A stretch of DNA of 64,000 nt from Candidatus Eremiobacterota bacterium (GTDB lineage Bacteria; Vulcanimicrobiota; Vulcanimicrobiia; Vulcanimicrobiales; Vulcanimicrobiaceae): assembly GCA_019235885.1 (NCBI GenBank), contig JAFAKB010000105.1, positions 1 through 64,000 on the forward strand, written 5' to 3'. Of the stretch, positions 9,721 through 15,206 are shown one piece after another; within the stretch, counting starts at the first letter, position 1, and each line of letters begins with the position of its first letter. The position numbers were made by a program, and so were the translations under genes. The notes beneath the pieces are model-generated. The model saw nothing but the letters and a program-made list of their open reading frames with translations, was not told where the DNA came from and did no database searches.

Positions 9721-9750
9721 TTGACAAACGGCCGGGCCGTCTGCTTTACT
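9721..9750 (+). promoter_or_regulatory. Promoter of the shikimate operon leader
   Basis: Perfect -35 TTGACA (9721-9726), 18-base spacer and extended -10 TGC-TTTACT (9742-9750). The expected start is about 9757, only 1-2 bases before the leader peptide ATG, so the leader mRNA would be nearly leaderless. Confidence 0.7.
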
Positions 9751-9758
9751 CGACGCAC

Positions 9759-9833
9759 ATGTCCGCTCGCGCGTATTCGTACCGGTATTACGGCTGCACG
9801 GTTCCCGTGCCGGTCGAGCTCGGCGTCGCGTAA
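9759..9833 (+). CDS. Tyrosine-rich leader peptide of the aro operon
   Basis: 24-codon ORF from ATG 9759 to TAA 9831-9833. Residues 6-11 are YSYRYY, four Tyr codons in six (9774-9776, 9780-9782, 9786-9788, 9789-9791), in a 24-residue peptide. It lies just after a good promoter and 31 bases before a strong terminator that precedes aroA. This is the layout of a ribosome-mediated attenuator sensing charged tRNA-Tyr, as for trp, his and phe leaders in other bacteria. Coding is inferred from the arrangement; no homologue is known to me. Confidence 0.6.
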   Translation: MSARAYSYRYYGCTVPVPVELGVA

Positions 9834-9900
9834 GCAGCAAGTTCCCCATCACACTGCACGCGAGCCTCTCGCCGACACGGCGAGAGGTTCGTTCGTTTTC
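9822..9900 (+). terminator. Attenuator: anti-terminator stem and intrinsic terminator
   Basis: Terminator: CCTCTCGCCG (9865-9874) pairs perfectly with CGGCGAGAGG (9878-9887), loop ACA, followed by TTCGTTCGTTTTC. A competing upstream stem pairs GGC 9822-9824, TCGCGT 9826-9831 and GCAG 9834-9837 with CTGC 9854-9857, ACGCGA 9858-9863 and GCC 9864-9866. It includes the leader stop codon on its left arm and takes two bases of the terminator on its right. A ribosome finishing the leader would cover the left arm and favour termination. One stalled at the Tyr codons would leave it free. Confidence 0.65.
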
Positions 9901-9922
9901 GGCGAAACGGCGAACCAGAGTA

Positions 9923-11176
9923 ATGACCGCGACGACCCCTCCGCTGACCGTCCCCGGCGACAAGTCGATCGCGCACCGCGCGCTGTTGCTGGCCGCGCTC
10001 GCGCGCGGCGCGTCGCGGCTGCGCAACCTTCCCGCCGGGCTCGACGTGCGCTCGACGCAGCGCGTGCTGCGCGCGCTCGGCGTCGCGATGCGCGAGGACG
10101 GTGGCGCGCTGGTGGTGACCGGCAGCGGCGGCGCGCTCGTCGCGCCTCCTGAACCGCTCGACTGCGGCAACAGCGGGACGACGATCAGGCTGCTCTCCGG
10201 CGTGCTCGCGACGCGCGCCCTCGTCGCGACGCTCGACGGCGACGCCTCGCTGCGCGCGCGGCCGATGCGGCGCATCGCGCAACCGCTGACGGGGTTCGGC
10301 GCGCGCTTCGAACTCTCGAAGTACGGGACGGCGCCGTTCGTGCTGCACGGCAACGGCGAGGCGCGCGGCGCGCAGGTGGAAATTACCGTGCCGAGCGCGC
10401 AGGTGAAGTCGGCCGTGCTGCTCGCCGCGCTCGGCGCGCACGGCCCGACGCGGCTGACCGGCGCGCTCGCGACGCGCGATCACACCGAGCGACTGTTCCG
10501 GGCCTTCGGCATCTCGTGCGCGGCCGACGACGGCGCACTCCTCGTCGAAGGCCCGCAAGTCCCGCGCGCATGCGACGTCGACGTGCCGGGCGACGTCTCG
10601 AGCGCCGCGTTTCTGCTCGCCGCCGCGGCGGCGGTCCCCGGCGCGCGCGCCGTCGTCGACGGCGTTGGCCTGAACCCGACGCGCACGGCGTTCTTCGAGG
10701 TGCTGCGCCGCTTCGGCGCGGAGGTCGACGTGCTGACGACCGACGCCTCGGCGGAGCCGCGCGGGCGCGTCGACGTTCGCGGCGCCGCGCTGCGCGCGAT
10801 CGTGATCGAGCCGGACGAAGTCCCGGGCCTCATCGACGAGTTGCCGCTGGTCGGCGTGCTCGGCGCGTTCGCGCGCGGAACGACCGTCGTCACCGGCGCC
10901 GCGGAGCTGCGGGTGAAAGAGTCGGATCGCATCGAGACGTTTGCGCGCGCGGCGCGCGCGCTCGGCGCGGAAGTCGAGACGTTCGGCGACGGCTTCGCGG
11001 TGCACGGTCCGGCACGGTGGCGCAGCGGATCGGTGGTGACCGCGGGCGATCACCGCATCGCGATGGCGTTCTCGGTCGCCGCGCGCGCGGCCGGCATCTC
11101 GGTCGTGCTCGACGATCCGGACTGCATGGCGGTCTCGTTCCCCGGCTTTGCGCACGCGCTGGAGCGCGTCGCGTGA
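9923..11176 (+). CDS. aroA: 3-phosphoshikimate 1-carboxyvinyltransferase (EPSP synthase)
   Basis: 417 residues. Joins shikimate-3-phosphate and PEP to form EPSP, step 6 of the chorismate pathway. Signature motifs: PGDKSIAHRALLLAAL (residues about 10-25), DCGNSGTTIRLLSGV, and LRVKESDRI near 330. ATG 9923 gives the expected N-terminus. First gene of the aroA-aroE-aroC-aroKB-aroQ operon, 23 bases after the attenuator T-stretch. Its stop overlaps the first possible start of aroE (GTGA). Confidence 0.96.
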   Translation: MTATTPPLTVPGDKSIAHRALLLAALARGASRLRNLPAGLDVRSTQRVLRALGVAMREDGGALVVTGSGGALVAPPEPLDCGNSGTTIRLLSGVLATRALVATLDGDASLRARPMRRIAQPLTGFGARFELSKYGTAPFVLHGNGEARGAQVEITVPSAQVKSAVLLAALGAHGPTRLTGALATRDHTERLFRAFGISCAADDGALLVEGPQVPRACDVDVPGDVSSAAFLLAAAAAVPGARAVVDGVGLNPTRTAFFEVLRRFGAEVDVLTTDASAEPRGRVDVRGAALRAIVIEPDEVPGLIDELPLVGVLGAFARGTTVVTGAAELRVKESDRIETFARAARALGAEVETFGDGFAVHGPARWRSGSVVTAGDHRIAMAFSVAARAAGISVVLDDPDCMAVSFPGFAHALERVA

Positions 11177-11209
11177 GCGCGCAACGCGGAGCGCATTGCG
11201 TGAGCGCGC
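11161..11209 (+). repeat. Tandem duplication of the aroE translation start region
   Basis: The 22 bases 11161-11182 (GGAGCGC...GTGAGCGCGC) recur at 11188-11209 with two mismatches, period 27. Each copy holds a GGAG eight bases ahead of a GTG (11173 and 11200), and the two GTG codons are in the same frame. Confidence 0.8.
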
Positions 11210-11991
11210 CGCGTCGTGCCGCGGTGATCGGCCATCCGGTCGCGCACAGCCGTTCGCCGGCGCTCTTCGCGCGCTTCGCCGCGGCGAGCGGGATCGCGCT
11301 GGCGTACGACGCCGTCGACGTGCTTCCGGAGGAGCTCGAAGCGACGCTCGCGCGCTGGCGCGGCGATCCCGCGTTCGTCGGCTGCAACGTCACGCTGCCG
11401 CACAAGGAGCGCGCGCTCGCGCTCGCCGACCGCGCCGAGCCGGCCGCGCGCGCGTGCGGGGCGGCGAACGTGCTCACCCGCGACGGCGGCGCGCTGGTCG
11501 CCGGCAACACCGACGTCGCCGGCATCGAAGCGGCGCTCGCGAAGTACGGCGTCGCGCTGCGCGGCGCGCGGGTCGCGATTCTCGGCGCGGGCGGCGCCGC
11601 GCGCGCCGTCGCGGAAGCGGCGCGGCGTAGCGGCGCGGCGATAATCACGATTGCCGCACGCGACGCCTCGCGCGCCGCGGCGCTCGCGGCGGATTTCGGT
11701 GCCGGCGCGTGCACGCTCGGCGCCGTGCCGGTCGCGGACGTGTACGTGAACGCGACGCCGGCCGGGATGCAGGGCCAGCCGCAGATCTCGCTGCTGCCGA
11801 ACGATGCGCCGGCGGGCGCGGCGGCGTTCGATCTGGTGTACGTTCCCGAAGAGACGGTGTTCTTGCGTGACGCCCGCGCGCGCGGGCTGCGGACCGTGCC
11901 GGGGACCGCGATGTTTCTGGCGCAAGCTGCCGCGACGTTCGAAAAATGGTTCGGCATAGCGCCGCCGCTCAGGATGATGACGACGAGATGA
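11173..11991 (+). CDS. aroE: Shikimate dehydrogenase
   Basis: 272 residues if started at GTG 11173, 263 if at GTG 11200. NADPH-dependent reduction of 3-dehydroshikimate to shikimate. Substrate-site motifs are GHPVAHSRSPALF, NVTLPHKERA (catalytic Lys) and GNTDVAGI. The nucleotide-binding glycine motif is GAGGAARAV. The C-terminal GTAMFLAQAAATFEKWFG is typical. The start at 11173 overlaps the aroA stop, suggesting translational coupling. The duplicated start region makes both starts usable. It overlaps aroC by ATGA. Confidence 0.95.
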   Translation: MSAQRGAHCVSAPRRAAVIGHPVAHSRSPALFARFAAASGIALAYDAVDVLPEELEATLARWRGDPAFVGCNVTLPHKERALALADRAEPAARACGAANVLTRDGGALVAGNTDVAGIEAALAKYGVALRGARVAILGAGGAARAVAEAARRSGAAIITIAARDASRAAALAADFGAGACTLGAVPVADVYVNATPAGMQGQPQISLLPNDAPAGAAAFDLVYVPEETVFLRDARARGLRTVPGTAMFLAQAAATFEKWFGIAPPLRMMTTR

Positions 11992-13154
11992 GCGGGCTTC
12001 GGTTTCTCACCGCGGGGGAGTCGCACGGGCCGGCGCTGGTCGGGATCATCGAAGGGGTCCCGAGCGGTCTGGCGCTCGATGCGGAGATACTGCTCGCGCA
12101 GGCGCGGCGGCGCAAGCTGGGCTACGGGCGCGGCAACCGGCAGAACATCGAAACCGACGAGGTGCGGATCGTCGCCGGCGTGCGGCGCGGGGTGACGATC
12201 GGCTCGCCGGTCGCGCTGATTCTAGAAAACAAGGATCACGTGCGGTGGTCGGAGATCATGCGCGTCGATCCGCCCGCGGACGACACGCCGCCGGCGCGGC
12301 AAGTTCACGTCCCGCGGCCCGGACACGCCGACCGCATCGGCGGGATCAAGTACGCGCGCGAGGATCTGCGCGACGTCCTCGAGCGCGCGAGCGCGCGCGA
12401 GACCGCGATGCGCGTCGCGCTCGGCACCGTGGCGCGCGCGCTGCTGGGCGCGCTCGGCGTGACGCTTAGCAGCCGCGTGGTGCGCATCGGGCGCGTCGTC
12501 GACGAGACGCCGTGGCGCGATGCGTCGCCGGAGGAGATCGACGCTTCGCCGGTGCGCGCGCTCGACGCCGTGGCCGCCGAGGCGATGGTGCGCGAGATCG
12601 AGCAGGCCAAAGCGGCGGGCGACTCGCTCGGCGGCGTGTTCGAGGTCGTGGCGCGCAACGTTCCGGTCGCGCTCGGTTCGTACGCGCAGTGGGACCGGCG
12701 GCTCGAAGGCGAGGTCGCCAAAGCGTTCATGTCGCTCAACGCGATCAAGGGCGTCGAGATCGGGCTCGGCTTCGGCGCCGCCGCGATCCACGGCTCGCAA
12801 GCGCACGACGAGTACGAGCCGGGCGGCGATGCGCGCACGCGCTACCGCAGCAACCGCGCGGGCGGAATCGAAGGCGGCATGACGACCGGCCAGCCGATCG
12901 TCGTGCGCGCCGGGATGAAACCGATCGCGACGCTGATGCAGCCGCTCGACTCGGTCGATCTCCGCACCGGCCAAGCGACGCCCGCGCACATCGAGCGCAG
13001 CGACACCTGCGCCGTCCCGGCCGCCGCGGTGATCGGCGAGTCGCTGCTGGCGCTCGTTCTCGCCGGCGCGGTGCTCGAGAAGTTCGGCGGCGACTCGATG
13101 GGCGAGCTGCGCGAGCGCGTGGAAGCTTGGGAGCGCACCGTCCGTGCTCGGTAA
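11988..13154 (+). CDS. aroC: Chorismate synthase
   Basis: 388 residues. FMN-dependent conversion of EPSP to chorismate, the last common step. Family motifs: LTAGESHGPAL at the N-terminus, RRKLGYGRGNRQNIETDEV, RPGHADRIGGIKY and ERSDTCAVPAAAVIGE. ATG 11988 overlaps the aroE stop by ATGA. The C-terminus overlaps aroKB by 11 bases, so the two are probably translationally coupled. Confidence 0.97.
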   Translation: MSGLRFLTAGESHGPALVGIIEGVPSGLALDAEILLAQARRRKLGYGRGNRQNIETDEVRIVAGVRRGVTIGSPVALILENKDHVRWSEIMRVDPPADDTPPARQVHVPRPGHADRIGGIKYAREDLRDVLERASARETAMRVALGTVARALLGALGVTLSSRVVRIGRVVDETPWRDASPEEIDASPVRALDAVAAEAMVREIEQAKAAGDSLGGVFEVVARNVPVALGSYAQWDRRLEGEVAKAFMSLNAIKGVEIGLGFGAAAIHGSQAHDEYEPGGDARTRYRSNRAGGIEGGMTTGQPIVVRAGMKPIATLMQPLDSVDLRTGQATPAHIERSDTCAVPAAAVIGESLLALVLAGAVLEKFGGDSMGELRERVEAWERTVRAR

Positions 13155-14745
13155 CGTCTACCTGTGCGGCCCGCCGGGCGCCGGGAAGTCGTCGGTCGCG
13201 CCGCTGCTGGCGGCGCTGTGGCACGGCGAGGCGGTCGACGTCGACGCGCTCATCGAGGCCGCCGACGGGCGCCCGATCGCGCGCATCGTCGAAGAGGACG
13301 GTGAGCCGGCGTTTCGCGCGCGCGAGCGCGCGACGATCGCGGCGCTCGCGCAGCGCGAGAACCTCGTCGTCGCGTTGGGCGCCGGTGCGCTCGAGTTCGC
13401 GGAGAACCGGCGCGCGGTCGAGGCGAGCGGGGTCACGGTCTTTCTCGATGCGTCGCTCGAGACGTGCGAGCGGCGCACCGCGCGCCAGAACGGAACGCGT
13501 CCGCTGCTGCGCGAGCCGGGCGCGCTGGCGCGCCTGCACGCCGCACGGCGGCCGCGCTATCTCGGCGCGGCGATCCGCGTCAGCGCGGACGACGAGTGGC
13601 CGCAGGGCGTGGCGCTCGCGATCGAGGCGCGGTTGAACGACGCCCGCGCGCCCGCGCGCGGCGGCGAGCGCACCGTTCGCGTGAAGACGGCGAAACCGTA
13701 CGACGTCGTGATCGGCGAGAACGCGGTCCGCGACATCGCCGAACGCGTGCGCCCGCGCGCCGGCGGACGCGTCGCCGTGATCGCCGACGAGCGGGTCGGC
13801 GCGGTGGCGGAGATCGTCGAAGCGGCGTACGCGGCTGCCGGGTTCGCCGTGAGCGTGACGCGCGTGCGCGCCGACGAAGCGCTCAAGTCGATGGACGGGC
13901 TCGCGATGCTGTACGGTGCGCTGGTCGAAGCGCGGGTCGACCGGCGCGGGATCGTCGTCGGGGTCGGCGGCGGAACGATCGGCGATGCGGTCGGGTTCGC
14001 GGCGGCGACGTTCCAGCGCGGCGTGCCGTACGCCGGCGTGCCGACGACGCTGCTGGCGGCGGTCGACGCGGCGATCGGCGGCAAGACCGCGATCAACCTG
14101 CCGAGCGGGAAAAACATGGTGGGGACGGTGACGCAGCCGGCGCACGTCGCGATCGCGCCCGAGGCGCTGCACGGCCTCGACGAACGCGACAAGCTCTCCG
14201 GGTACGGCGAGATGCTCAAGTACGGGCTCGCGCTCGACGCGCAGCTCTACCGGACGATGCGCGAGAACGAGCGCGCGATCGTCTCGGACCCGGCGCACGC
14301 GCTCGACGTCATCGCGCGCTGCGTCGAGCTCAAAGCGGAGAGCGTCGCGCGCGACGAGGAGGACCGAACGGGTCTTCGCGCGCTGCTCAACTTCGGGCAC
14401 ACCGTCGGCCACGCGCTCGAGCGGGTCGCCGGATACGGCGCGTTGCGCCACGGCGAAGCGGTGATCGTCGGGATGCGCGCCGCGCTGGCAATTTCCGCCC
14501 GCTGCGCGGCGCTGGACGAGCGCGAGCGTGAAGACGCCGACGTGCACCTCGCGGGCCTGCCGGTGCCGGAGTCGTGGCGCGACTTGGACGCCGAGGCGAT
14601 CGTCGCGGCGACGCACGGCGACAAGAAGCGCCATGCCGGGGGGACGCAGTACGTCGTGCTCGACGCGATCGGCAGCAGTCGTCCGCACGACGGCGTGACG
14701 GACGACGAGGTGCGCGCGGCACTGCGCGAGATCGGCCTGCGATGA
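13144..14745 (+). CDS. aroKB: Fused shikimate kinase / 3-dehydroquinate synthase (AroKB)
   Basis: 533 residues. Residues about 1-165 are shikimate kinase: Walker A GPPGAGKSS near 9, the VDVDALIEA segment, ALGAGALEF and the lid with an RPLL motif. Residues about 180-533 are dehydroquinate synthase: VGGGTIGDAVGFAAATFQRG, PTTLLAAVDAAIGGKTAINL, and metal ligands in NFGHTVGHALE and the preceding GYGEMLKYG. It therefore performs steps 2 and 5 of the pathway in one chain. Such fusions are known in a few bacteria. GTG 13144 lies within the aroC end. The linker (about 165-180) is Ala/Arg-rich. Confidence 0.95.
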   Translation: MLGNVYLCGPPGAGKSSVAPLLAALWHGEAVDVDALIEAADGRPIARIVEEDGEPAFRARERATIAALAQRENLVVALGAGALEFAENRRAVEASGVTVFLDASLETCERRTARQNGTRPLLREPGALARLHAARRPRYLGAAIRVSADDEWPQGVALAIEARLNDARAPARGGERTVRVKTAKPYDVVIGENAVRDIAERVRPRAGGRVAVIADERVGAVAEIVEAAYAAAGFAVSVTRVRADEALKSMDGLAMLYGALVEARVDRRGIVVGVGGGTIGDAVGFAAATFQRGVPYAGVPTTLLAAVDAAIGGKTAINLPSGKNMVGTVTQPAHVAIAPEALHGLDERDKLSGYGEMLKYGLALDAQLYRTMRENERAIVSDPAHALDVIARCVELKAESVARDEEDRTGLRALLNFGHTVGHALERVAGYGALRHGEAVIVGMRAALAISARCAALDEREREDADVHLAGLPVPESWRDLDAEAIVAATHGDKKRHAGGTQYVVLDAIGSSRPHDGVTDDEVRAALREIGLR

Positions 14746-15206
14746 ACGTCTTGGTGATCAACGGACCGAACTTGAACCTGCTCGGCGAACGCGAGCCGGA
14801 GATCTACGGGCGCAAGACGCTGCGCGATCTGGAGCGCGAGGTGAGCGCGCGCGCGCGTAAGCTGCGCCAGCGCGTTCGCTTCTTCCAGTCGAACCACGAG
14901 GGCGAGATCGTCGACGAGCTGCACCGCCTGCGCAGGTGGGCCGACGCGATCGTGATCAACCCGGCCGCGTTCACCCACTACTCGTACGCGATCCGCGACG
15001 CGCTGCTCGCGCTTGCGCTGCCCGCCGTCGAGGTGCATCTCACCGACGTCGACGGCCGGGCGGAAAAAGAAGGCGAGTTTCGCAAGATCTCCGTCGTGCG
15101 CGACGTGTGCGTGCACCGCTTCACCGGCGAGGGGATCGGCTCGTACCTCAAAGCGCTCGACGCGCTCGCCGCCGACCGCGACGCCGCCCGAAAGAAACGC
15201 CGGTGA
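14742..15206 (+). CDS. aroQ: Type II 3-dehydroquinate dehydratase
   Basis: 154 residues, normal length for the dodecameric type II enzyme that converts 3-dehydroquinate to 3-dehydroshikimate. Motifs: [17 protein letters not shown] (catalytic Tyr), [29 protein letters not shown] and [22 protein letters not shown] overlaps the aroKB stop (ATGA). With this gene the operon covers all steps from DAHP to chorismate. The DAHP synthase is not in the window. Confidence 0.96.

Follow-up and report, generated by a model that had tools for sequence, protein, structure and literature searches.

A probable ribosome-mediated attenuator with aromatic leader codons upstream of a shikimate operon in Vulcanimicrobiaceae

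A shikimate operon, aroA-E-C-KB-Q, lies in DNA from a soil bacterium of the phylum Vulcanimicrobiota (formerly WPS-2/Eremiobacterota). The intergenic stretch in front of aroA raises the question of whether it controls the operon and, if so, which signal it senses. A preliminary description had seen there the layout of ribosome-mediated attenuation, with a leader peptide sensing tyrosine. We analysed the whole 64,000-nt stretch of DNA (the window) and compared it with genomes of the same genus and family.

The operon, its promoter and its leader ORF

All five gene identities given in the preliminary description were backed by Pfam:

9923..11176, + strand, aroA (EPSP synthase), first structural gene (PF00275, E=4e-100)
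11173..11991, + strand, aroE (shikimate dehydrogenase), start approximate (PF08501/PF01488)
11988..13154, + strand, aroC (chorismate synthase) (PF01264, E=1e-109)
13144..14745, + strand, aroKB fusion (shikimate kinase and 3-dehydroquinate synthase) (PF01202, PF01761, PF24621)
14742..15206, + strand, aroQ (type II dehydroquinase) (PF01220, E=1e-50)

For comparison we used 11 genomes of the genus, including the window species' own genome (G000); aroA was detected in nine. Among named relatives, the closest aroA genes were those of the metagenome-assembled genomes RYN_345 and palsa_1490. The genus includes a cultivated strain, Vulcanimicrobium alpinum WC8-2, whose chromosome has been published (PMC9758169) and whose family is Vulcanimicrobiaceae according to the NCBI taxonomy; we infer that genome G006 is this strain. 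The leader arrangement described below was kept in eight of the nine genus members with a detected aroA, including G006. In the remaining member, G009, there was no leader before aroA. A Na+/H+ antiporter-like gene adjoins aroA there (L104, 2530-4107, minus strand), an apparent natural loss of the attenuator.

The following elements of the leader were found upstream of aroA:

9721..9726, + strand, -35 box TTGACA, invariant in 8/8 species
9742..9750, + strand, extended -10 element (TGC TTTACT), TG[C/G]T[T/C][T/C/G]A[C/A]T in all eight except G001 (GGC)
9759..9833, + strand, leader peptide ORF MSARAYSYRYYGCTVPVPVELGVA (ATG to TAA, 24 codons), conserved in 8/8 species
9774-9776, 9780-9782 and 9786-9791, + strand, regulatory Tyr codons 6, 8, 10 and 11 within the leader ORF

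The good promoter noticed earlier is thus present and conserved across eight species. It is composed of the -35 box, an 18-nt spacer, the -10 hexamer TTTACT (9745-9750) and its TGC extension (9742-9744). The promoter escaped a strict sigma-70 scan, which demands an A at position 2 of the -10 box. The leader ATG lay 37-38 nt from the first base of TTGACA in all eight species. Transcription would therefore be expected to start at the ATG or 1-2 nt before it (about 9757-9759 in the window), leaving no room for a Shine-Dalgarno sequence. The leader ORF is thus probably leaderless.

The 24-codon ORF with YSYRYY near its start, as reported before, was recovered with its four Tyr codons. Four Tyr in codons 2-14 have P ~3e-5 against the protein composition of the window. 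Across the eight species, 38 of 104 residues (37%) in codons 2-14 were Phe, Trp or Tyr, compared with 4.6% in the neighbouring proteins; as the sequences are related, a joint P for this enrichment is indicative only. Each of the eight leaders had three to six aromatic codons in this stretch. The peptides were:

G000 (window species), MSARAYSYRYYGCTVPVPVELGVA
G007, MRASFWYRSYYGYTEPVSVELGVA
G004, MSACAFWYRHYDGYTGFVSVEFGAA
G008, MSACAFWYRLYYGYTGFVSVEFGAA
G001, MSHRAAYRYSYGSTKFVSVEFGVAQ
G002, MSPSAFWYRRYYGCTKSVSVEFGIA
G005, MSRPYLLAWYFGCTALVSVELGNA
G006, MLSGAYFYRWYPRCTQVVSVEFGIA

Only the window species and one relative have Tyr-only leaders; the other relatives use Phe, Trp and Tyr codons. The identity, order and position of the aromatic residues shift between species, which argues that selection acts on the aromatic codons and not on the peptide. 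The proposal of Tyr sensing therefore holds, with one refinement: aromatic codons are conserved and the window leader is Tyr-only, but relatives mix the three amino acids. Because relatives carry Phe, Trp and Tyr codons, the sensed signal appears to be aromatic amino acids generally, and "Tyr only" as a general label is ruled out by their Phe and Trp codons.

Terminator, competing pairing and the probable switch

The RNA downstream of the aromatic codons can be assigned to the following elements:

9796..9810, + strand, region 1:2 hairpin, GCACG (9796-9800) with CGTGC (9806-9810), candidate pause or anti-antiterminator, core CACG:CGTG invariant
9807..9837, + strand, region 2, 5' strand of the antiterminator (GTGCCGG-t-CGAG...GGC-g-TCGCG..GCAG), covering codons 17-24 and the stop
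9854..9878, + strand, region 3, 3' strand of the antiterminator, which overlaps the terminator's 5' arm and loop
9861..9899, + strand, intrinsic terminator from terminator scan and conservation, 13-bp stem (9861-9873/9879-9891), loop GACAC, U-rich tail (9892-9899)

The terminator, with the tail TTCGTTTTC, was the best of 11 terminator-like sites in a scan of the window. The nearest upstream gene encodes an amidohydrolase on the minus strand, divergent from aroA, so the terminator at 9861-9891 belongs to the aro leader and closes no upstream operon. A perfect 10-bp terminator had been described at 9865-9887. A terminator is indeed there, but those ten pairs are nine Watson-Crick pairs (9865-9873/9879-9887) and one wobble; the G-U and further pairs extend the stem to 13 bp. 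This stem was paired in 104/104 cells across the eight species. Two double-sided compensatory changes were found in it: the window has U-A in place of C-G, and G001 has G-C in place of A-U.

The competing antiterminator comprises 19 bp and was kept in 8/8 species. Two segments in the last leader codons, GUGYCGG-u-CGAG and GGC-n-YCGCG, pair with CGCGAGCC and CUCGCCGACAC, which form the terminator's 5' arm and loop. The antiterminator stem proposed earlier at 9822-9866 exists, but it makes up just the inner half; in the outer half, 9807-9818 pair with 9868-9878. In register, 93% of the positions were paired, compared with 30-49% when the register was shifted. In none of the eight species was there a better duplex between the two strands than the pairing of region 2 with region 3. 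In seven species 2 to 17 of 500 shuffles equalled it, and in G001 83 of 500 did. Compensatory changes were absent from the antiterminator across the eight species because its columns hardly vary, so the covariation among relatives for which the preliminary description had suggested looking is found in the terminator but not in the antiterminator. Five codons of the C-terminal motif VSVE.G.A were identical in all species (P ~4e-5 at the rate of codon conservation in aroA of the same genomes), and, among synonymous recodings, the codons chosen ranked in the best 4-12% for pairing between regions 2 and 3. Codon invariance and the recoding test support selection on the RNA at the antiterminator 5' strand.

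Conservation of VSVE(L/F)G.A in the peptide as well as in the RNA could also be explained by nascent-peptide arrest of the TnaC or antibiotic-leader type, in which a small molecule, for example free tyrosine or a drug, would cause the peptide itself to stall the ribosome. However, the motif is conserved at the codon level, which base pairing accounts for. The aromatic residues differ in order and identity, and the C-termini are unrelated in the sister leaders for other amino acids described below. We therefore regard peptide arrest as highly unlikely, and attribute the conserved codons to their pairing in the RNA.

The mutual exclusion of terminator and antiterminator would also be expected of an RNA sensor working without protein, such as a T-box or an aromatic amino acid riboswitch, with the ORF incidental. 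Such a sensor would have only about 100 nt between the start and the terminator, and it would leave the coding constraint and the aromatic codons unexplained. No family, T-box included, matched anywhere in the 64,000-nt window at the gathering thresholds of Rfam 15, and a T-box or riboswitch was rejected for this reason. The RNA-sensor explanation is exceedingly improbable.

The region 1:2 hairpin is a candidate pause or anti-antiterminator. Its outer pair is A-U in three species, G-U in three, G-C in the window and broken in G001, giving one compensating position. Folding predicted the hairpin in only some of the species, and weakly in several.

For a co-transcriptional snapshot, the RNA was cut just before the 3' arm of the terminator and the footprint of the ribosome was masked. 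With the ribosomal A-site on codons 9-13, the antiterminator had a probability of about 0.9-0.96 in 8/8 species, with a dip at codons 12-13 in G006 (V. alpinum). In all eight, the probability dropped around codon 14-15, reached 0.00 at codon 15 or 16 and stayed there up to the stop. This switching window has the aromatic cluster on its permissive side. When the full terminator was included at equilibrium, with ribosomes masked, the terminator had a probability of about 1 at every ribosome position. Since the terminator always wins at equilibrium, the switch must be kinetic and decided during RNA synthesis, as in classical attenuators.

The dominance of the terminator at equilibrium is also what a plain promoter followed by a partial, constitutive terminator would give, with a chance ORF and a fixed low expression of the operon. 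A chance ORF would not explain why the ORF is conserved and so rich in aromatic codons over background. Nor would it explain the conservation of the competing pairing, or the parallel leaders whose codons match the pathways downstream of them. We consider constitutive termination very unlikely.

With its conserved aromatic ORF, compensated terminator and a conserved, correctly placed competing antiterminator, the leader has the layout of ribosome-mediated attenuation that had been suspected. We conclude, with high confidence, that a ribosome-mediated transcription attenuator controls the shikimate operon. RNA polymerase would begin the transcript at the leader AUG or 1-2 nt ahead of it, and ribosomes would load on the leaderless message. 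A shortage of aminoacylated Tyr-tRNA (Phe-, Trp- or Tyr-tRNA in relatives) would stall the ribosome within codons 6-11. The stall would free region 2 (codons 17-24 and the stop region) to pair with nascent region 3, and the polymerase would read through into aroA-E-C-KB-Q. When charged tRNA is plentiful, the ribosome would reach the stop codon inside region 2 and cover this region; region 3 would then pair with region 4, and transcription would end at about 9892-9900. The operon is thus probably turned on when aromatic amino acids run short. The presence of the leader in G006, the genome resembling V. alpinum WC8-2, makes this prediction checkable in pure culture; the first cultivated member of the phylum was reported in 2022.

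Related leaders in the family

A covariance model (R1) was built from the eight aro leaders, with no promoter in the model, and 99 genomes of the family were searched with it. Besides the aroA leaders, the matches included dozens of similar attenuators; we examined about 80, of which about 14 had no convincing leader. For ten examples, the downstream gene families were assigned. Leaders with Thr runs precede homoserine dehydrogenase and threonine synthase, and Met leaders precede homoserine dehydrogenase and O-acetylhomoserine sulfhydrylase. A Cys leader precedes the ATPase of a sulfate-type ABC transporter, and a Cys/Met leader precedes a sulfonate-binding protein. An Ile leader is found before threonine ammonia-lyase, Val/Leu/Ile leaders before acetolactate synthase and ketol-acid reductoisomerase, a Leu leader before isopropylmalate synthase, and the Trp-containing MYLVHWCVHWCSDRPGGW before trpD. 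The set includes L144, L145, L148, L150, L152, L204, L219, L227, L236 and L239, with Cys, Leu, Met, branched-chain, Ile, Thr and Trp leaders. The Met leader-peptide attenuators, located upstream of homoserine dehydrogenase and metY, appear especially unusual.

A TTGACA-like box (at least 5 of 6 matches) lay 36-43 nt before the start codon in 44 of 48 other leaders (19 of them aromatic), compared with 3.8% of control ATGs. The 5' arm of the terminator was more sequestered with the ribosome on the regulatory codons than with the ribosome at the stop in 28 of the 37 leaders analysed, a set from which automatic terminator finding had missed a few leaders. The same layout was also matched outside the family: before an acetolactate synthase-like gene in a second family of the order, and before a homoserine dehydrogenase-like gene in a further family of the class.

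The window species' own genome has at least three attenuators by the model search alone. One is a threonine attenuator with the leader MFGLCVTTTTTMTTTSLGEGRSRSTSA before homoserine dehydrogenase (L246, G000:C85:48495-48599, minus strand). Another has a second aromatic leader, MTRATWSYRYFSYASRSAPAR, before a prephenate dehydratase-DAHP synthase fusion (L247, G000:C42:16384-16485, plus strand). The 18-mer GTGCCGTGCGAGTTCGGC, present in about 10 copies in the genome resembling V. alpinum (for example, G006:C1, 192967-192984), is probably a repeat or mobile element.

Nine genus members had a separate aromatic leader before the DAHP synthase gene. At the TrpE loci of the genus, there was no aromatic leader within the upstream stretch inspected. 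In G015 (L105) and G028 (L106), PDT-DAHPS, aroA, aroE, aroC, aroKB and aroQ follow an aromatic leader in a single run, so that one leader stands before a near-complete aromatic pathway. In G095 (L248), an aromatic leader is followed by at least PDT-DAHPS and aroA. The simplest reading is that one ancestral aromatic operon was split in Vulcanimicrobium, with each part keeping or gaining an aromatic leader.

On a broader level, it seems likely that leaderless attenuation is the main control of amino acid synthesis in Vulcanimicrobiaceae, and probably in the class, for Thr, Met, Cys, Ile, branched-chain amino acids, Leu, Trp and pooled Phe/Trp/Tyr. The same proposal, held at this strength, includes an ancestral single attenuated operon PDT-DAHPS-aroA-E-C-KB-Q, observed whole in two other genera and partly in a third; in Vulcanimicrobium it would have divided into two operons, each with its own aromatic leader.

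Comparison with known attenuators

In Escherichia coli, trpL before trpEDCBA and pheL before pheA carry codons specific for the end product, in a leader with a ribosome-binding site. The aro leader resembles them in the logic of regions 1-4, the stop codon inside region 2 and the intrinsic terminator. It differs from them in its mixed aromatic codons, its apparently leaderless ORF and its shared pathway.

The nearest precedent is Corynebacterium glutamicum aroR, whose attenuator before aroF was reportedly described by Neshat and colleagues in 2014. The aroR attenuator was predicted in PMC4046766. According to PMC11802643, the aroR leader carries the codons Phe-Tyr-Phe, precedes the DAHP synthase operon of aroF and responds to Phe and not to Tyr. 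Both systems have a leader with aromatic codons before an operon of the common aromatic pathway and use ribosome-mediated attenuation. In contrast to the DAHP synthase operon of C. glutamicum, the target here is aroA-E-C-KB-Q, the window leader is Tyr-only, and phylum and sequence are different. The preliminary description knew of no attenuator for a full shikimate operon, and our literature search agrees, with aroR as a close precedent. Within the open-access literature, which leaves out most subscription papers, we found neither an attenuator of a whole shikimate operon nor an attenuator or leader peptide from Eremiobacterota.

The Sinorhizobium meliloti trpL transcript begins at the ATG of the leader ORF and ends at the attenuator terminator (PMC7298713). 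The aro leader is similar in its apparently leaderless ORF, judged from the predicted start, and in its attenuator terminator. The S. meliloti system, however, serves a Trp operon in an alphaproteobacterium and has known extra functions in trans (rnTrpL/peTrpL). A terminated leader RNA or peptide might likewise act in trans here, with or without attenuation in cis, since a leaderless leader transcript ending at the terminator is what S. meliloti trpL produces (PMC7298713). The arrangement in cis is sufficient, though, and we think a function in trans very unlikely; attenuation in cis remains our reading.

Leaders made without a Shine-Dalgarno sequence or ribosome-binding site have a further parallel in C. 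glutamicum ilvBNC, as reported by Morbach et al. 2000, cited in PMC4046766. In Actinobacteria, leaders for Trp, Cys and Leu have been described, and no RNA elements were reported for Thr, Met, Phe or Tyr operons (PMC1262725). The Vulcanimicrobiota leaders resemble ilvBNC and the actinobacterial leaders as amino acid leader peptides serving several pathways in one lineage. They differ from ilvBNC in the amino acids concerned, and from the Actinobacteria in that this family shows Thr, Met and aromatic leaders.

The mechanism is therefore classical, and the target, the codon mix, the phylum and the scale are new. A leader with Phe, Trp and Tyr codons would provide the common aromatic pathway with one sensor that works through translation. 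The apparently leaderless attenuators of the family would together form a large natural series for testing the timing of leaderless initiation, RNA folding and termination.
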